Assembly: GCF_026210795.1 (NCBI RefSeq)
Contig: NC_089455.1
Span: forward strand, 992,001 to 1,056,000
Direction of reading: 5' to 3'
Source: Rhizophagus irregularis
Lineage: Eukaryota; Glomeromycota; Glomeromycetes; Glomerales; Glomeraceae
Length of the DNA: 64,000 nucleotides
The translations under genes and the position numbers were made by a program. The notes beneath the pieces are model-generated. The model saw nothing but the letters and a program-made list of their open reading frames with translations. It was not told the origin of the DNA and ran no database searches. How positions within the stretch are numbered: the first letter of the stretch is position 1; every line of letters starts with the position of its first letter. Shown here piece by piece: positions 7,642-63,352 of this stretch.

Positions 7642-8990
7642 ATGTATCAGTTTGTATTAATTAATTTTTAACTATTAGTATTTTTCAAGTTTTACTTTTT
7701 TTGCAAATATTAAACAGAATAAAGTAATTCAGTTGTTTTTTTATTTTTTATTATAATTAAAGTAAGATTTCATAATTTTTGCATTAATGCAAATTTTATA
7801 AATTAATAAAACAAAATAAAGCAATTTGATTACTTCTTTTATTTCTTATTACAACTAGAATTATAACAATAATTTAAAGAACTGTTTTTTTGTTTAATTT
7901 TTTTACTTATAATGATTTTAAAATTAAAAGTGTAAAAAAACCAAACTACTTATATTTATACTTTAAAAAAAAATATAAAGAAAAAAAGTTTATAATTAAA
8001 TACAAGTTATTTTTTCAAATAAGTAAAATATAAAGTATTGTAAATAAAAATTTTAATAAAAAAATTAATATTGAAATTTTTAATAGTGATTAATACTTAT
8101 CTTTAAAAATAGTTAAAAATTAATATTGAAATTTTTAATACTTATCTTTAAAAATAAATAAAAATTAATTTAATGTCAGTTTAGATTCAAAGCTCTAATT
8201 ATTACTTATTATTTAAAATAAAGTAAAGAATTATATATATTTATATACTATAAAAAATAAGTTTAGTAGTAATAATTATAATTTTTTATTGAATTTTTTT
8301 GCATTAATATTTTTTTTTTAAAGAAAATTACAGTATATTTATAAATTTATTAATATAAAATTAATAAATTATTACAAAATGTAAAATATATAACCAAAAG
8401 TTATATTAATATAATTAACTTATAAACCATTATTATTTTAAGTGCACTATTAATTAGCCATTTTTCCTATATAAGTAAATTATATGTAAAACAGATTTTC
8501 TTATACAATCTCTTATAATTTGAAAAAAGTAATCAAAAGATCTATTATATTATAATTAATAAACTTAAGAAATTTAAAAACAAACTGCAAAAAAGGGTTT
8601 ATCAAAGATATATTATAATAAAATAAATAAATAAATGGTATTTTTATTTAATTAAATAATTTATAAATGATTTTAGTTAGTATTATAACTTACTATATTT
8701 ATCGGTAGCAATATCTGTGAAAATTAGTATTTAAATTATTTTTTTTAATTATTGTATAATTAATTCTATATGAAGTAATAATGAATTATCAATAAAAATT
8801 TGAATTAAAATTTGTTTTTCTTACATGTAATTCTTATTGTCTACTTATTAATAAAAAGTTAATAAATATGAAGATTTTTTGAATAAGAAAAAGAAATAGA
8901 TAAAAGACATTATATTTAGCTTCTTTACTAAAAATAGCCAATTTTTGAAATGATTTTATAATAATTTTAAAATACTACTAAAATACATTT

Positions 8991-9174
8991 TTTTTTTTTT
9001 CCAAAACGTATTTGCAGTTTTATTAAAGTAAAAAATATAGAAAAAATATACAAAGTAAATTCCCTAATAACTACAAACCACTCGTCATACCAATAGTACC
9101 TCATGTATGCACTATCAAATGATCATTTGATTCTGTAGATAGACTTCGTTTAGTCAGGTGATCACGGGATCTAC
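8991..9174 (-). mobile_element. SINE-like retroposed insertion with 14-bp target-site duplication
   Basis: A 14-bp direct repeat, ACTAAAATACATTT, occurs at 8977-8990 and again at 9175-9188. Between the copies is a 184-bp segment that starts with a long T run (poly-A tail on the minus strand) and ends in a more GC-rich head unlike the surrounding AT desert. A long target duplication, a terminal poly-A and a short body are the hallmarks of target-primed retroposition, as for SINEs or processed RNAs. I could not find convincing pol III A and B boxes in the head, so the parent RNA is unknown. Confidence 0.65.
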
Positions 9175-10017
9175 ACTAAAATACATTTAATACATCAAAA
9201 TGTTTTTATTAATATACTTTTATTATTATTTTGTAATTGTATAATTTGTATTATATTTAAGTTTATAAAATAATTCAAAATAATAATATTACAATAATTT
9301 TTTAATGCTTTTATTATTATTTTATTATTACAATATAATTAACTTTAATATTATATTAATATTTTAAATTTCAAAAATACTTTAAATATATTAATATATT
9401 TTAAAATTTTACTTTAAAAGCCATTATATCTAGGTCTATATAAAAATATTTCAAAAAATTGGCAATTTTTAATAAAGTTGTAAGCAGACTTTTCAACTTG
9501 AAAAAATAATAACAATAGAAAAATATATAATTAGTAATTATTTATTAAAGATAGACCATTCAATTATAAGGAAATATTTTCTGGAACTAATGTTAAATAG
9601 CAAAATAATGATCAAATTATTGAAAAATTTTTATGAAAGTTTAGATTTAAGTAAAAAATAAAAAGAAGACATTAATATAATTTTTATCAAGACATTTATA
9701 TATTGTGATTTATTTTGGTATTTAGTTGAATATCCATTTATTATTGAATTGTTAAGCAGCTTAGATCAAATTATAATTTACCAAATAGAAAGACTTGCTA
9801 ATACTATATTAATATAGAAATCTTACAGGTTAATGTAAAGTTATATAAGTTGTTTAAAAAAAAAGTTATTTAATGTTAAATAAGTATATACAAAAGTTAT
9901 AAAATTAAAATTTTTTAAATTCTATTAAATACTAATTATTTTTTTTTTTCAAATTTTAATTAAATTACAGATAATTGAATTAGTTTATCAGGTAAATTTA
10001 AGGTTGCTGGAGAAACT

Positions 10018-36918: not shown

Positions 36919-39381
36919 GTCACAAATAGGGATGTTAACAGTTTATGATTGGATGGTTCGAACCGCAGTTTGATCATAGGACCGGTTTCAGTTCAGTTCA
37001 AACGTCAAACCAAACCGAGACCGAACCGATAGAAACCGGTTTAGTGAACCGGTTTTAGATCGGTTCAATTAACGGTTACGTGTATCTGCACGCGTAACTT
37101 TTTACAATAAAAGAATAACGGATTTTACATTCTTACATTTTTTTATATCACCTTGCATTATTACAACTATGTCGGGAGTTTTTGAAAATGACGATAATAA
37201 TTTATCAGATGATTCCTTAGCATCTGATGATGAAAGAATTATAAATAAGAAATTGTCAGCAGATGTTTGGGAGTTTTTTCAAAAAATTCAAGATGAGGAA
37301 AGTTGGTTAATTACAAACTATAAGTGTATTTTGTGTGCAAAACTTTATTCACCTGGTAATCCAACATCTACACTTCGACGTCATTTAACTAAAAAACATC
37401 CATCACATTATAAAAAACCTGAAACCCGCCAAACTACTTTACGTTTTAAACCTTACTCTCCATCAAAATCTAAACCTATCACAGATTCTTTGGTTGATTT
37501 TGTTGCAACTGATTTGCAACCTTTTACCATTGTTGAAAATCCTGAATTCAAATTATTAATTAATAAATTGAATCCCCACTATATTTTACCTTGCAGACAA
37601 ACCTTAAAGGAAAAATTCATAGAAAATTATAAAATGAGAAAAAATGTGTTAATTAATGAAGTCTCACAAATTAACTCAAAAATCTCTCTTACTACTGATA
37701 TTTGGACTTCAGAAATCTCAAAAGATTGTTATCTTGGAGTAACAATGCATTATATTAACAACAATTGGGAATTAAAAAATCTCTTACTTGATTTAATTCC
37801 TGTAAATGGTTCTCATACAGCTGGGTTAATTACTAGCAAGCTTTTACAAATTCTTGAAGAGTTTAGTATCAGTAATAATATTCTTGCATTAACTACAGAC
37901 AATGGAAGCAACATGATAGCATGTGGTAATCAACTAGCAACTGAATTAGATCAGGAGTTTAATAATATGGCTTTTACTCATTACAGATGTGCTGCACATA
38001 TTATAAATTTAGCAGTAAAAGCAGGAATGAGTCATGTTGGAAATGAAATCAAAAAACTTCGTCAATTTGTTGTTAAAATCAAGAATTCACCATTATTTTT
38101 GGATAAATTATCAGAAATTTGTACCCTTAAAAAAGTTAAATTTCTTAAACCAATTTTAGATATAGACATTCGCTGGAATTCCACATATTTTATGATTAAT
38201 AGACAAATCTTAATGCAGGGTGTTTCAGAATTACTTGCAACAACAAATGTTGAAGAACTTGGAGATTTATTTCCAACAATATCTGAATGGCGACATATTA
38301 AGGTATTTTTTATTTTATAAATTATTATTTATTTTATTTTATAATTATATATTTATTAATTATTATTTTTTTTTTACAGGAATTAGCAAAGGTATTAGAA
38401 CCTATGTATGAAGCAACCAATTTATTATCATCATCAAAAAATCCTACACAAGGTGATATAAGATTGGTTTTTAATGGAATGTTTAAAAAATTGGATCATT
38501 ATCAAAGAGGAAATCACCATACACAAAAGGCAATAGCATCAGCAATTTGTAATAAATTGAAAGCCTATTGGGACAAATATTTGAATCAATCTTCCATTAC
38601 TTCTTCAATATTAGATCCACGCTACAAAACCACATTATTTAGTCATAATGATATAACTGAAATTATTAGTAAATTACAAGAATTATATTTGTCATATTTA
38701 CCCTTAAATAATCAAACCATACCATCAGCACCAGCACGATCATCTCGTGATTATTTTCTTAATTTACTTAATCCAAATAATATTCGTCAAGAAGTATCGC
38801 ATGATGAATTAGATCGATACTTAAATTCTCCAGTAGATAGTAATACAGGTTCTTTAATTTGGTGGAAAACTTATGAAAAGGATTACCCAGTACTATCTCA
38901 AATAGCTAAGGATTATTTAACAATCCAAGCAACGTCGGTTCCATCAGAAAGGGCATTTTCAATTTCGGGATTAACTATTTCAAAAACTAGAAATAGGTTA
39001 GATCCCTGAAACGGCAAGAAGGCAATTATATGCACGAAAAATTGGATATCAGAAAAAGAAAGAATGGAAAATTGAATCAATACTTGCAATATGTCTTTTT
39101 TTTTTCCTTTTTTTTACATTATGTGAAATTTTGTTGGTAATTTTTTTTCTTATAATAAAAAATTTTTTGACGATATACGATATATTTAAATTCATGATCT
39201 GCATTACACAATTTTGTATAAAATACTATAAATATCCGGTCTAAACTTCGGTCTAAACTTCAGTCCAAACTTCGGTTCAAACTCTGGTTCTAAACCTATA
39301 ACGGTTCGGTTTTGTACTCAAACCACCAGTTTTTGGACCGAAAACCGGATGGACCGAACCGTTAACATCCCTAGTCACAAA
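36919..39381 (+). mobile_element. hAT DNA transposon with 8-bp target-site duplication
   Basis: The element proper is 36927-39373 (2447 bp). It is bounded by a 13-bp perfect terminal inverted repeat, TAGGGATGTTAAC at the left and its complement at the right, and flanked by a perfect 8-bp duplication GTCACAAA (36919-36926 and 39374-39381), the size diagnostic of hAT. Both subterminal regions are packed with ACCGGTT/GGTTCGG-type motifs (about 36955-37080 and 39235-39350), likely transposase binding sites. Inside is one two-exon transposase gene. Intact ends and target duplication indicate a fairly recent insertion. Confidence 0.96.
37169..39009 (+). CDS. hAT transposase with BED zinc finger, frameshifted at the C-terminus
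   Basis: Exons 37169-38302 and 38380-39009 give 587 residues. An N-terminal BED finger (CILCAKLY...LRRHLTKKH) is followed by the catalytic core. LTTDIWTS carries the first Asp, LTTDNGSNM the second, and RCAAHIINLAVKAG is the conserved CxxH region; the C-terminal dimerisation block is IQATSVPSERAFSISG. The frame stops at a TGA directly after NRLDP. The family continues here with a short helix, and the +1 frame does continue (ETARRQLYARK), so one extra base in the CCC at about 39003-39005 has removed about 25-30 residues. The copy may be inactive or weakened, but ends and active site look intact. Confidence 0.92.
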
Positions 39382-54689: not shown

Positions 54690-57430
54690 AGCGATTCAGA
54701 ATCTTTTTCAAGTGATGATGAGTTTTTTCCCACTGATTTTCCTGAAAATATAACAAAAGATAGTGATTCTAGTGATGGCGAAGATTATACATGCCACCCA
54801 AATTATTTTGGGCTGCCATAATTATAAGTGAAATCCCAAATTCAATTATAGCATCCCAAATTATTTTGGCACTTTACATAGTAAATTATATATAAACTAA
54901 ATGAATTACGGCATCCCAAATTATAATTATGGCATCCCAAAATAATTTGGGCAGCATGTATAGCGAAAATGATGATTTCTATTCTTATAATATAAGTAGT
55001 TCAACTTTAACATTAGATGTTGGATTAACATTTTCCTTTTAGAAGATAGCTTTTCAACATATTAAATAATGAGTTCATCAACAAGGTTTTTTTGTTTGTA
55101 AAGGAAGATTAGAAAAAGTGCAATCTGAACAAAGAAAACAAACAATTGTGTATCATTGTGAAGAAGTTCCTAATATTAAGCCAAATAAATAAACAAAATC
55201 ATGTTATACAAATTGTAAGTGGTATGTTAACCTTTCTAGACCAATAAAAAACAATCCTAACTTTTTGATTTTTGTTACTACACTTTTAAATGAACACTCT
55301 GGTCATAATTTAGATGTTTCTGCATGTCATTTTGAAGCATTTAAAGCTTTTACAAAGCCTATGTTAAAAGATATTGAATGGATGTCTATACATGATTATT
55401 TGAAATCATTGGCAATTAAACGTATGTTAAAAGCCAAATATAACAGAAAAGTTTATAATCAAGACCTTTACAAAGTGATTTACAAGTATCATCATAACAA
55501 TAATACATATGGTAATGATGTTTTATAAGTTTTTGAATACCTTGAAAAATGTAAAGATGATGATTCACATTGGATAATTTATAAAGATTAGGACCATGAA
55601 ACTAATACACTGATGAAGCTTTTTTGGATGAGTCCTAAGTAACAAGAAACTTAGTGTTTATATAGTGATGTAGTTCTTAATGACAATACCTTAAAAACAA
55701 ATCATTATGATATGTTTCTTTCATTTTTTGTAGCAATTGATAACAATATGAAGTCACGAATTATAGTTCAAGTATTAATGAATTAGGAAACTAAGAAAGC
55801 ATACAGTTGGATTCTGCAATATACAATAGATGCAACAAGATTAATGCCAAAAGTATTTGTAACAGATGCTGATCCCGGTATGGACACAGCAATTCAATTA
55901 AAATATCCTTCTACATTTGCAATTCACTGTATTTAGTATATTAGATAAAATCTACTATTGCGTTTGAAATCAAAACTTGGTGGATCATTTAACCAATTCA
56001 AAAATGATTTTTATGAATGTCGAAATAGTTTAGACTTTAAAGCAAGAAGTGTTTGAAAAACGTTGGCAAGATTTACTTGCTAACTATCCAAATGCAGTTA
56101 GTTATCTTAAGAAAGTTCTTTATCCATCAAAAACTTCTTAGACACATGCATTTAGTACTAATATCTTTACAATAGATATACAAATTACATTACGTAGTGA
56201 ATCAGTTAATGGTACCTTTAAACGTCTTTTGTACAATTCAAATAGCACACTAGTAGATATACTTCTTAAAGTTGAGGAACGATTAGAAGAGAAGCAAGAT
56301 AATTAAGATTACGTGAACTGGCATAATACTCTTTTAATTATCCAGTCTACAACTATTGCATCAAATGCTTTTAGTGATATAATCAGTGAACTTAAAGAAT
56401 TTACTACATTTCCAATTCAAAAAATTCATTACAATGAAATGGAATTGGCATTTAATTATGATGCAAAACTTTTAGATCGATCTTGTATTATTAATGAAGA
56501 TTTAAAGGTTAGAAATTTCAAAGCATGATAATAAATATTCATTTGAAATATACTTATCTAATCACATTTTATTTACCAAATTAAATTTTTAGGATTGGTC
56601 ATTTTATTGAGAAATAAGAAATAAGACAAGTTATATTTCAAAACCTTTTGTCATCATATAATGAAACAACTATTAAATGTCTTTGGGAAGTTAATTATTT
56701 AACTTCTTTTGAAGTACATCACTTGGTTATTTTATTGAATAATAGAATATACAAATGTTTGTGTATGTCTCTAGTAACCTGTGGAATGATCTGCAGACAC
56801 TATTTTAGTGTAATGTTACGAACTTCAGATGCACAATTTCATATTGGATTTCTTAATCAATGCTGGTTTATTTCAAATCAATTGGATTTTAGAAAGCAAC
56901 CTTTTTATCCTGCTACGAAATTTAAAAGTGAATCAAACGCTTAATTTTTAGCTCTTAGTAATACCATATCTGATTTTTCTAACTCAACAGATGAAGTTTC
57001 TAAACTTAATATTAATCAATATGCTTCTCTTAAAAAGCAACATCTATATAATGTTAATGTACGAGAGCTGACCAATCAAGCTAAGCAGATTGCTTGCAAA
57101 AGTTGTGATAAATTCTTTATTACTTTACTTGAGGAATATATTGACAAAAAAAACTGGAAAGCAATAAATTTACAACATATTGATGTATATAGTAGTCAAC
57201 ATCAAATCATAAATGAAGAAGTAGACCAAGAAAATGATAGAATTATTGGAAATCCTATAATCAGACATCCTAAAGGATGACCATCTGAAACTGCAAGATT
57301 TAAAGGACCTTTACAAACTTCAACTCAGTCTAATGAAGTTCCAACAGGTCAAAAATATAGTTTATGCAATAGAAATGGTCATAATCATGCTACATATCCA
57401 ATGAATCCAATCGAAAGAAAAGAAACAATG
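54690..57430 (+). pseudogene. Decayed FAR1-related Mutator-like (MULE) transposase
   Basis: Conceptual reading on the plus strand follows the FAR1-family transposase order, interrupted by many stops. An acidic N-terminus leads into a FAR1-type zinc region (YTNCKWYVNLSRP, TTLLNEHSGHNLDVS). The MULE core follows (LNDNTLKTNHYDMFLSFFVA, VFVTDADPGMDTAI, a second block FAIHCI), then SESVNGTFKRLLYNS, then a SWIM zinc finger (CLCMSLVTCGMICRH). Stops lie where the family has Gln or Trp, for example at about 55639 (TAA), 55651 (TAG) and 56140 (TAG), consistent with C-to-T and G-to-A changes. A MITE has inserted at 54788-54960. No terminal inverted repeats of this element could be set. It cannot make a working protein. 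Confidence 0.88.
54786..54962. mobile_element. MITE nested inside the MULE pseudogene
   Basis: An insertion of 169-173 bp with terminal inverted repeats of about 40 bp: CATGCCACCCAAATTATTTT at the left, and CATGCTGCCCAAATTATTTT on the other strand at the right. GGCATCCCAAA motifs recur internally. TATA stands on both sides (54786-54789 and 54959-54962). If TATA is the 4-bp target duplication, removing the element restores the host reading frame (GED-Y-SENDD); a plain TA duplication would not. No coding sequence. Confidence 0.85.
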
Positions 57431-57918
57431 AAGTATTGAATCATTAGATTTGTAATATTGAATTAAGGTAAGTGTTGAGTCAGATTAAAGTTAAGGTTGG
57501 GGTTAGGGTTAGGGTTAGGATTAGGATTAGGGTTAGAGTTAGGATTAGGATTAGGTTAGGGTTAGGGTTAGGGTTAGGTTGGTTTAGTTAAAATTTAAAA
57601 GTTTAAAATGCTAACTCAATTATTTTTTTTATTTTGTAGATATAAAGTATGAATTTGCATTTATTTATTAATATGTTATTATAATTGTTTACAATAAAAT
57701 TTATAAAATATTAGTTAGGTGCACATAGAATAATGTACGTGACTACGTGTTGCTATAATTTCTAATAAATTTTTTATATTTTTTATGCATGCGTAGAAAT
57801 AATAAGAGTTTAAAATTTTATATATAATTTATGCACCTCTGCACTTTGTGCAGATGCGTAGAAAAAAAAAACCTGATATTATATATATATATTTTTTAAT
57901 ATTTATATTTACAGATTA
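57431..57918. other. Spacer between MULE pseudogene and mariner element
   Basis: About 490 bp. It holds the telomere-like tract at 57491-57590, then AT-rich sequence with two related motifs, TGCGTAGAAA at about 57788 and 57855. No gene is visible. Confidence 0.5.
57491..57590. repeat. Interstitial telomere-type (TTAGGG)n repeats
   Basis: About 100 bp made of TTAGGG units mixed with variants TTAGGA, TTAGAG, TTAGG and TTGGGG, all in one orientation (G-rich strand is plus). TTAGGG is the telomere repeat of most filamentous fungi. Here it lies internally, between two transposon remnants, and is degenerate, so it is not a live chromosome end. Confidence 0.9.
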
Positions 57919-58101
57919 TCGCTATTTTCGATTTGGTTGAATCTGTACTATGTTGATCAATTATAATAAATTTACCAAAAACACCAAAAACACCCAAGTT
58001 ATTTGATTTGTTAATAAAAGCGTGACTCTTAAATGATTTTCAATTAAAATATGATATAAAAGGATAGTACCTGGCGCAGTTTGTACAATAAAATCCAAAA
58101 A

Positions 58102-59772
58102 ATGACGCGTGAATATCTACCTGCTAATTGCTACACTTGTAAAAAGTGTTTAATTTGTTTTACTTTAGACACTTGCAAGTGTGATAAAAGTGTGAAACCA
58201 ACAAGAGTAGGCAACCCACAACGCGGTCAACAAATTTATTCTCACGTTTTTACTCCCAACGAAGAACTGTAAACGGCAAACCAATTTCTTTTTTCTGCTA
58301 ACGAAAATTTTCAATACAATAGCAATTTTAACATTCCATTTTCTTTCACCTTTTGTTCTACTTGCAATAGTAAATTTCAAAGATTGAAAGGTAATGATAA
58401 GTTAGCTAAAAGAAAAGACATATATACTAAAAAAAAAATACTTGCTGAAAAAGAGGAGAAGATATTAGAAAAATCTACTAATAAAATGAATAGTATATCT
58501 ATTGATGTTGAAGATACTAAATCTAGTGATTTTGTTGATGGAGAAGATGAGGATGATATTTCTGAATTTTCTGAAGTTGAAGACTATGGAATTGATCAAA
58601 TCAAGTTACAAATAGCTATTGAAAAGAAGGGTAAGAAAACTTCTACTTCTAAAACTATAACCATCAAACCAGTTGAATATATTACTGTTATAGAAGGAAT
58701 CAATAATGCTGTTCAAAAAGCACTTAAGAATAGAAATATCAAGCCAGCAGATTACAGTATGTCATATAAAGCAGTAAATGCGCGTGGCCCTTCAAGTACA
58801 TTAGAAGATAAATTGGATTTTAATGAATTTATTGAAGATTATAAGAAAATCATTGCTGCAGGCAAGAAAGTGTCAATAATAATTGTAATTGGTGATGATT
58901 CTACAAATGAAAAAACAAAATCAAAGCGTTTAAAGGTAAGAAAGTTCTGAAGTTCAACTGTTTTTTTAGTTTTTTCAATATCTAATTTCATATTAAAAAT
59001 TTCAGGCTTCTGACAAAAGTGATTCCTCAGCTTCGATGAAGAAAGAAATCAAAGAATATTATCAAATTCTAAAAAGAAAAGAAAGTCGCGTGCTACTCAA
59101 GAAAATGATTTATCTAAAGAAGAACAAACAAGAGCGGGAATCTAGCTGCTTTATGTGAAAAATACAAGTGTGATATGCATAATACACCATGCTTTATTCA
59201 AGAAAATCGCCATTTACAACTAAATCCAGCTAGATTACAGCTTTGGGCACGTGAAATTGTAAGTAATTTTAATTATTAGCAAATTGATTTTGCATTTATT
59301 TCAATTCTAACCTCAATAAAAATTATAGCATAATAAAAATACTACTTATGACGTTCCTCAAACATTTCCAACATTCAATGCAGCATTGGGCACGTTGGTA
59401 AACAAAAATAATGATACACAAATACCAACTATAGCGTCTACTACATCTACTACACCTGTTAATCCTATTGTGATTCAAATGCCATATCCTTATTCTCATT
59501 CTCCTTCAAATACATCTATTCATCCAACATCTATTCATCCAATATCATCACCTACTACAAATCATGAATTACCTTCAGTTACTGAATTTTTTCTTAACTT
59601 AGATCAAAAATATAATTGTAATAATGTATATTCCAAATTTGAAAATGCTTTTTTAAAAGAAGAAATTACGGTAAATGCAATTAAAGATTTGACTGATGAA
59701 CAAATGGTAAAATTAGGAATTGTTAAAATTGGGTGGCAAAAAAACATTAGGCAAGCAGCACAAAGATATTGA
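58102..59772 (+). pseudogene. SAM-domain passenger gene of the mariner element, disrupted
   Basis: The reading starts MTREYLPANCYTCKKC with a Cys-rich N-terminus, then an in-frame TAA (58270-58272) where Gln (CAA) would fit, then ANQFLFSANENFQYN and IPFSFTFCSTCNSKFQRL. After an acidic/Lys-rich linker comes a domain of unknown type (KPVEYITVIEGINNAVQKAL). Introns at about 58936-59005 and 59259-59328 keep phase. In the middle exon two frameshifts lie near 59065 and 59140. The C-terminus is a SAM domain (VTEFFLNLDQKYN, ITVNAIKDLTDEQMVKLGIV, GWQKNIRQAA), a protein- or RNA-binding helical bundle. Proteins with this end are frequent in Rhizophagus. It lies wholly inside the element's inverted repeats and faces the transposase, so it appears to be cargo. 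Its role in transposition is unknown. Confidence 0.8.
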
Positions 59773-59873
59773 TTGATTAGTATATTTTTGTATTTCATTA
59801 TAAAATATAATAAAAAATTGTTTACTAATAAAATTGATATTCTAATTTTATTTTATTTTTTATAATAAATTTT

Positions 59874-60973
59874 TTACAAATAAATTGATGACTTAAAAAA
59901 TGATTGTGCCATTTGAGGTGTAATTTGACTGCATGCAATTAATAAAGCATATATTGGATCATTACAAGCATCCATAAAATCATAATTACATTTAATCCAT
60001 GATTTAATTATTGAAAATGCTGTTTCTATAGGGTTATAATCAGGAGAATAAGGTGGAAGAAAAATTACGTAACATCCCAATCCTTCTAATAGCGAAATAA
60101 GATCATCATCATAATGTATTCTGGCATTATCCATTATAATAACGCTATTATTACCAGGATAGGGATTCATTACAGGAACCTATATTGAAATATTGAGAAT
60201 TTATATAAGTTATAATTTTAAAATAATATTATAATTTTACATACCACTTGATCAAGTACAAATTTAACGAATTTATTTTTATCACATGCCCCTTTAAACA
60301 CATCAACTGCAACAAATCCATCTAAAGTAAGAGCAGACAAGATTGTATATCTTTTTCCTCGTACAAATACCACTTTTTTGCATGCACGTATATTTCTAGG
60401 AGAATATCCATATAATTCTTACAAACTTCTCTCATCCTTAGCACTTTCATCAATAAAGATTAATTGATTTGGAGTATAATGCTCACCAATAATTCCTAAA
60501 TAATGTGCACGCATAATTTCACTTCTCTCATATGCTTCTTTTTGTAACTTTATAAAAAAAAAAAACTATAATTAGAATATGCAGTTACTAATTTTTTTCT
60601 GAAAATTAAAATTTTCAATACCTTTTTTCTGGTAATTCCTAAATAATGAAGTGATCTCCAGAGTGTTACAATAGAAGCTCTTTTTCCTGTAAGATTTTCC
60701 ATCTCACTCACCAACTCGTCTAAATACCAGTTAACTTTATCTCTAATGAGATTTTGGAGTATATACATATCATTTCTACTGAAAAGCTTTCTTCTTCCAG
60801 AAATCCCTTTATATGGATTGGTAACACACACCCATTTTTCATAAATATTTATTATTCTAGTTACAGAAGACTTGCTCATATATAATGTATTAGCAATATC
60901 TATAATGATAAAACCATCGGTATATAAATATACTACTACTCCATTGTAAATCCTCACTAAATTCTTTAGGCAT
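59874..60973 (-). pseudogene. IS630/mariner-type DDE transposase, disrupted
   Basis: Three exons on the minus strand: 60973-60622, 60547-60245 and 60179-59874. The N-terminus has a helix-turn-helix (IANTLYMSKSSVTRIINIYE) and a second one (LVSEMENLTGKRASIVTLWR). The catalytic triad is readable: FIDESAKDERS (first Asp), VIIMDNARIHYDDD (second Asp) and PPYSPDYNPIETAFS (the Glu), the order of the IS630/Tc1-mariner superfamily. Two lesions break it: a one-base shift close to the start (about 60925, between EDLQW and VVYLYTDGF) and an in-frame TAA at about 60419-60421 after DERSL. It would have cut and pasted the element at TA sites. Confidence 0.88.
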
Positions 60974-61424
60974 GAGGTATTTCTATTTATAAATAAGATA
61001 AAATTTTAGTTGAATAAGCAGAAATAATCATAAATATAGTATAGAACCTAATGTTGAAGTAAATCTAACAAATGGAAGCGAAATAAATCTAAAAAATACA
61101 TACACAAGGTCTTTTCTATCAAGAAATAAATATTTCAGTTCAAAATTTTAGTTGAACAAGCGTTATAATTGTAGTGATTGCAATATATAATGTGGACCGA
61201 ATGTTGAATCGCTAGTAATCTTCTAATAAATAGAAAAAAAAATTCAAAGAAAGTACAAAAACATACGCGTTATAACTCAATCATCATGCGTAATACAAAA
61301 AATTTGCATGTTGATAAGCAAAGCATAAAGTTTTATATGTACTACTTTACAAAATCACGAGTTTTTGCCAATTTTATTATAATTGATCAACATAGTGCAG
61401 ATTCAATCAAATCGAAAACGGCGA

Positions 61425-63352
61425 TAAATAAATAATTATATTTTAAAATATTAAAAAAAAATTAATTTTATATTTATTTAAGATTAATTTAAATTAATTT
61501 ATTAAAAATGAATTTTACTTTGATTTATATATAATTTAATATATTAAATTTTTTAAATTTTTTAAATTAGAATTTTATAAAATATCTTTAAATAAGTCAT
61601 GAATTATACTTTTAGATCTAAAGTTTAAATAAAAAGTTAAAAATTGGAATTATGTAGTAATCTAATTTTGATGATTTTTTTTTGGTTTGTAACTTTGTAA
61701 TTTAAAAAAAAAAATTATTAAAATTAAATTATTGGATACTATAATATTTGCAAAATACAAATTTTTGAATTTTAGTAAAAAAGTGTGATTTTGGCTAATT
61801 TTAATATCTTATTTTAGCATTAAAATTTTATAAAAAATTTTTATTTTTTAAATTTTTTTTTTAGTTTTTTTAGTTTTTTTTAAAAACTTTTTTTTAATTG
61901 TAATACATTTATGAATTTATTAAATTAAAAAAAATAGGATGGATATATATTAAGTAAAGAACTATTTATATAATTCTAATATTATTAATCTATAAATTAC
62001 CTTAAATAAACAGTTTTATTGAATAGATAGTTAGGATTTATTATTTTTATAAAAAACAATTTAATAATTAATCTTTTATTTTTATTAAAATCCATTTATT
62101 ACAGTTTACTCTTGATATATTGTAAGAACAAAGGAAACTATATTAAAAAATGAAAATATAAGTTTAAGAAATGCCTTTTAATATTAACAACATATCTATG
62201 AATATAAAAATAAAATAAGTTTATATTAAGAAGACTTAAAGAAAAAATAAAGAAAAAATAAAAATTATATTTGTAAAAAAAAAATGGTTAGAAATAAAAT
62301 TTAAACTGAAAAAATTTAAATTTCAATAAAATATACTTTAGGTGATTTTTTACCTAGTGAATTTTACTTCTGGTATACATTAAGATTATTAAATAAGATA
62401 AATAAGTATTAAATTATAGTTTATTATTATAAAGGCATACTAAAATACTTGCAATTCTAGTTATAATGTGTTAGCAGGCTTTATATATATAAATTATAAA
62501 ATCATATTTAACAATCTGGTTTTTTTTAATATAAAGAAATATATAAAATAGTTTTATTTCTTATCATTATTTAACCTTAAAATCTTAATTTTAATCTTAA
62601 AGAAATCAAAAATTTTAAATAGTTCCTATCAATTTTACGCATAATTAAAAACATTAAAAATAATAAAATAACGTTTTTATCTGTCTAAATTTTTTTTTTT
62701 TTTTGCAAGTTGATTATTAGTTTCTTTTCAGAAAAAGTATATAATAATTTCTCTTTTTTTTTGTAATTGATAACTAAACAATTATATAATAATATCTTAC
62801 GCTTCGCTCCGGACAATTAAAAGATGTATTCTTTCTTTAAGGTATAATAAAGGCGAAACATCTTTCAAACCTTTGTAAAAGTAAAGTGAAATATAAAAAG
62901 AATTCCAAATTAAGTAGATGTTAAATTTTTTAAAAAAAAAGTAAAAACATTACATTCGGAAAAAAATTATATATTATGTTGATTTTATGGAATTCCTTTT
63001 AGCTCTCATAAACGTTACCTTATTAAGACGCGTTATTTTAGCCAAAAAAAAATAAATATTAGCCAAAGTTCGCGTAAATTTTTTTTTTTTGTGTTGATTT
63101 TTTGAAAAAAAATGGATATATTAAATATTAAAAATTTACAAATTTTACAATGTAAAAAAAGATAAAGAACCTCTTCCGCTCCATTAATAACCAAGAGAAA
63201 ATAAATCAAGTGTTAAATATTTTACAAATTCTATAAATTTAACTTAATTAAATTATAAATATAATACATAGGCTGTATATTAGAAAATATACATCTTGTA
63301 AATAAAATAATCCATAGAAGCCATATGATAAATGACTGGCGGGATTTAATTA
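61425..63352. other. AT-rich intergenic region
   Basis: About 1.9 kb, almost all A and T, with poly-T runs and no coding frame. A slightly GC-richer spot at about 62800-62830 (TTACGCTTCGCTCCGGACAA) shows nothing recognisable. The right end is the 3' flank of the receiver-domain gene. Confidence 0.55.

Follow-up and report, generated by a model that had tools for sequence, protein, structure and literature searches.

Mariners are mostly regarded as single-gene transposons. Passenger-bearing mariners are already known, though: PMC3627910 describes some mariners in which genes for Fanzor1, endonucleases, or methyltransferases accompany the transposase gene and which target TA sites. Here we describe an element from Rhizophagus irregularis that resembles these mariners, with a Mariner transposase and a gene for an extra protein within the same terminal inverted repeats (TIRs), and with TA sites. 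The kind of passenger is different: the extra gene here encodes a Cys-rich protein with a SAM domain, and we liken our element to those in PMC3627910 by description. More broadly, the element resembles the Tc1/mariner (IS630-Tc1-mariner) superfamily in its TIRs, its TA flanks, and its DDE_3 domain with D-x34-E; the N terminus of the transposase, with a weak HTH-like match, may be a further likeness. It differs from that superfamily in its length (~3.5 kb instead of 1.3-2 kb), in carrying a further gene on the other strand, and in having introns in both genes.

R. irregularis is reported to contain Tc1 elements (PMC8647823). New Tc1-Mariner families have also been reported from this fungus, and two-thirds of its transposable elements are unclassified (PMC11075540). 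Among its families with known domains, kinase, BTB/POZ, Sel1-like, and Kelch-like proteins have been amplified the most, and MULEs are overrepresented next to these (PMC8647823). The SAM domain is not named among the most amplified families in the excerpts of PMC8647823, and SAM genes in mariners are not mentioned in the excerpts of either PMC8647823 or PMC11075540. A full-text literature search for the SAM domain together with mariners, DNA transposons, or Rhizophagus returned no such report; papers on SAMHD1 and on fungal NLRs that came up were unrelated. Another comparison is to Pack-MULEs and to the MULE-linked amplification in R. irregularis (PMC8647823), which are similar in that genes lie on or near DNA transposons. 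However, those systems belong to another superfamily, and in our element, one pair of ends encloses both the passenger and a transposase gene.

If the second gene is a stable part of the element, then one would have to ask what help a mariner transposase requires, and there would be a route for a transposon to amplify signalling-type domains in a symbiotic fungus. If the second gene was captured a single time, then this is one more passenger-bearing mariner, of local interest only.

The element lies at positions 57919-61424 of the window, which is the whole 64-kb stretch of DNA that we analyzed. It is 3,506 bp long, and its GC content is 27.8%. An earlier note on this DNA had proposed these same boundaries, with TA on both sides, and both boundaries are exact. 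The note had also proposed TIRs of about 50 bp: the TIRs are present, but they are 64 bp long (Table 1). The left and right TIRs differ at seven positions, and five of these seven differences are transitions. Among the 90 inverted pairs that were reported in 57400-62000, the TIRs are the longest (67 nt with neighboring bases), and the next pairs are 35-38 nt. Across the whole 64-kb window, the best other 64-mer match to the left end is 38/64, and a 25-base pattern for both ends, with up to 3 mismatches, matches only the element's own two ends. Given these results and the 57/64 identity of the two ends, we conclude that the TIRs are real and do not repeat elsewhere in the 64 kb.

Table 1. Features of the element and of its two genes (positions are those of the window).
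Feature	Positions	Strand	Basis
TA, left target-site copy	57917-57918		Sequence
Left TIR, 64 bp	57919-57982	+	57/64 identical to right end
SAM gene exon 1 (ATG 58102; in-frame stop 58270-58272; Cys-rich start)	58102-58935	+	Frame open before and after the stop; codon-usage scan (weak before ~58370)
Middle segment, predicted beta-grasp-like strand/helix order	58579-58899	+	Single-sequence model, mean pLDDT 56.6 (tentative)
SAM gene intron 1 (GTAAGA...CAG, phase 0)	58936-59005	+	Splice signals, exon length, and frame; putative acceptor
SAM gene exon 2 (one or two reading-frame changes)	59006-59258	+	Coding frame shifts inside the exon
SAM gene intron 2 (GTAAGT...TAG)	59259-59328	+	Splice signals and frame
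SAM gene exon 3 (ends in TGA)	59329-59772	+	ORF; codon scan
SAM domain, Pfam-aligned part	59632-59766	+	SAM_1, E = 5.1e-6
Transposase exon 3 (second Asp 60129-60131; Glu 60024-60026; stop 59874-59876)	59874-60179	-	DDE_3
Transposase intron 2 (GTATGT...TAG, phase 0)	60180-60244	-	Splice signals and frames
Transposase exon 2 (first Asp 60449-60451; in-frame stop 60419-60421)	60245-60547	-	Frames and sequence
Transposase intron 1 (GTATTG...AAG, phase 0)	60548-60621	-	Putative, from frames
Transposase exon 1, HTH region (proposed ATG 60973)	60622-60973	-	HTH_33 match and frames; putative ATG
Right TIR, 64 bp	61361-61424	-	57/64 identical to left end
TA, right target-site copy	61425-61426		Sequence

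The window contains one copy of the element. We searched the window for further copies or short derivatives with a 53-base pattern from the left end or with the 25-base two-end pattern (up to 3 mismatches), and we found none. Besides itself and its own TIRs (E = 9.75e-18), the element matched many short segments of the window by blastn (E = 7e-7 or weaker), which we take for chance matches between AT-rich sequences. Using tblastn, seven protein pieces from the element matched themselves, and the other hits in the window had E = 0.53 or weaker. We also considered and set aside CpG depletion as a sign of methylation-driven decay: the observed/expected ratio for CpG in the element is 0.665, which is unremarkable, since 21% of 605 stretches of the same length have a ratio this low.

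As the earlier note had proposed, there is a DDE transposase on the minus strand. The gene has three exons and about 320 codons. The DDE_3 family in Pfam matches the last exon alone with E = 1.2e-15, and it matches the read-through, with X at the in-frame stop, with E = 1.4e-24. The catalytic residues have the spacing D(84)D(34)E (with the X at the stop codon counted), and a DD34E spacing is Tc1-like. The N-terminal part has a match to HTH_33 (E = 0.0016) whose score of 18.4 bits is below the Pfam cutoff of 25. By sequence, the nearest solved chain is SETMAR (E = 0.013 with the last exon as query and 0.075 with the read-through); the read-through also matched two kappa-carrageenase chains (E of 0.45-0.48). 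SETMAR is a domesticated Tc/mariner-like transposase (PMC5718144).

This copy of the transposase is not intact, which bears on the autonomy of the present copy and not on its superfamily membership. Its in-frame stop separates the first catalytic Asp from the second. Also, the proposed ATG and the HTH region are in different frames, and there is probably a frame break near the start of the gene. An upstream exon that we do not see could explain the mismatch between these frames, but it would not explain the in-frame stop.

The plus-strand gene has three exons and about 510 codons. The claim that it is a multi-exon gene that ends in a SAM domain holds up: exon 3 matches SAM_1 with 27.2 bits (the cutoff is 23), and the alignment covers positions 18-62 of the 64 in the profile. 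In a single-sequence model, the SAM domain has five helices, with a mean pLDDT of 74.4. When we compared this model to the PDB, the best 50 of the 234 fold matches were all SAM entries, and two of these were listed as EphA5/SAMD5; none of the 234 had E <= 0.001. By sequence, the hits for exon 3 among the solved structures are SAM-containing chains (best E = 0.025).

The middle segment of this protein is modeled with the order beta-beta-alpha-beta-beta-alpha-beta. Given the low mean pLDDT of this model (Table 1), the assignment as beta-grasp-like is tentative. None of its 875 fold matches had E <= 0.001, and the top match was to EapH1, an unrelated bacterial protein (2.4e-3). Among the best 50 of the 875 were PB1, ubiquitin-like, and Ras-binding domains, along with numerous proteins from staphylococci. 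The only match in Pfam was to Jacalin (E = 0.015), which is below the cutoff. On this model, a beta-grasp is a reasonable guess but nothing firmer.

The SAM gene is disrupted as well. Its frame is open for 56 codons and then meets an in-frame stop. With the intron 1 acceptor that we chose, the coding frame moves twice within exon 2. A later acceptor could remove the first of these moves. So, there is at least one frame change in exon 2, and there are probably two. To score the coding potential of the element, we used a codon-usage scan that was trained on 14 long ORFs of the window. From ~58370 on, the scan favors the proposed frames of the SAM gene; before that, the signal is weak, and this includes the Cys-rich part. 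In the SAM half of the element, the maximum score was 19.5 on the sense strand and up to 12.3 on the antisense strand. In the transposase half, the corresponding scores were 11.5 and up to 10.3, so the scan barely distinguishes the strands of the transposase. We rejected the capture of a retrocopy as the origin of the SAM gene because two introns are retained.

The two genes are convergent (tail to tail), with 101 bp between their stop codons (59773-59873). The SAM gene starts 183 bp inside the left end, and together, the two genes occupy most of the element. This agrees with the earlier proposal of a mariner-type element with a second gene inside its ends: the TIRs, the TA dinucleotides, DDE_3, and a SAM gene between the ends are all present. 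Each gene has two introns, which are in phase 0 as judged by the frames. The two halves of the element have similar composition, though this is not specific (28.8% vs. 26.7% GC and CpG ratios of 0.63 vs. 0.72). Both genes have disabling lesions, which fits what is expected if they decayed together. Because of the in-frame stops, the present copy could not make either protein in full.

Our best explanation, in which we have about as much confidence as doubt, is that these are the decayed remains of a Tc1/mariner-superfamily element that carried two genes within one pair of ends: a DD34E transposase and a Cys-rich/beta-grasp-like/SAM protein. In the living element, the transposase would have acted by binding the TIRs and carrying all 3.5 kb to TA sites, and the SAM gene would have traveled along. 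We suggest more cautiously that the second protein belonged to the element as a regular part and was not a one-off capture. SAM domains often oligomerize, and the second protein might have been a self-associating adaptor that aided assembly or nuclear targeting. We lean slightly toward doubt on a broader proposal, which is that a lineage of Tc1/mariner elements in glomeromycetes regularly encodes an accessory Cys-rich/beta-grasp/SAM protein, which multiplied with the transposon and seeded SAM-domain genes in the host. We found no confirmed relative in viral and prokaryotic contigs (using single protein pieces, which would identify close relatives only, and the exact end pattern). These collections are unlikely to contain such DNA, and the absence of relatives from them is close to uninformative.

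The decay of both genes and the lack of an above-chance repeat at the borders of the SAM half fit a two-gene unit that died whole. One copy would look no different if a host gene had been captured once, long ago, and this is a strong rival, to which we give clearly less than even credence. Under this scenario, a single-gene Tc1/mariner element took up a host SAM gene, introns included, between the stop codon of the transposase and the left end; both genes then decayed, and the SAM gene had no role in transposition. Passenger genes can come and go sporadically in transposons (PMC5718144), and, as discussed above, extra genes are known in mariners (PMC3627910). Since the SAM gene kept its introns, its source was DNA, as this scenario would have it, and the single copy in the 64-kb window is also what a one-off event would leave. 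On the other hand, the SAM gene looks whole, not like a fragment, and it lies very near the end of the transposase gene without a detectable junction.

Alternatively, the SAM gene could have arrived with a different mobile element that landed inside the mariner. There are remains of other transposons in the window, such as the hAT-type gene at 37073-39009. However, no direct or inverted repeat brackets the SAM half at above-chance length. At its borders, the longest exact match was 8 bp, which was reached by 128 of 200 shuffled sequences for direct repeats and by 150 of 200 for inverted repeats. (These were mononucleotide shuffles, which are a rough control.) Also, among the 25 longest of the 90 inverted pairs, none but the TIRs is long enough to hint at the ends of a second element around the SAM half. 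We consider a nested insertion to be improbable.

It is very improbable that the open frame of the SAM gene arose by chance or that the gene is an artifact of gene calling: there are weak codon scores before ~58370, broken frames, and sizeable antisense scores, but the SAM_1 match is above the Pfam cutoff, long stretches of the proposed frame have a codon-usage signal (up to 19.5), two introns fit the frames, and SAM entries are among the best 50 of the 234 fold matches.

The window as a whole is AT-rich (15-32% GC in 2-kb segments), with a very AT-rich segment at 8001-10000 (15% GC). We compared ten translated stretches of the window to Pfam; two had no match, and the other eight were two F-box-like proteins, a protein kinase, a BACK-TLDc protein, an MFS transporter, a Myb-repeat protein, and two pieces of a hAT-type gene. 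The hAT-type transposase gene (37073-39009) spans two overlapping open frames, in which there are a BED finger and a hAT dimerisation domain. At 55193-57439, several short open frames with Cys/His motifs follow one another on the plus strand. By eye, our guess is that they are what is left of a MULE-type transposase that had a SWIM-like finger; four pieces of this stretch had no match in Pfam above the cutoff. A single open frame of 752 codons, at 412-2670, contains eight Myb-like stretches. Finally, about 340 bp to the left of the element (57490-57578), there is a degenerate array with about 15 copies of the telomere-like hexamer GTTAGG, which is possibly an interstitial telomeric tract.
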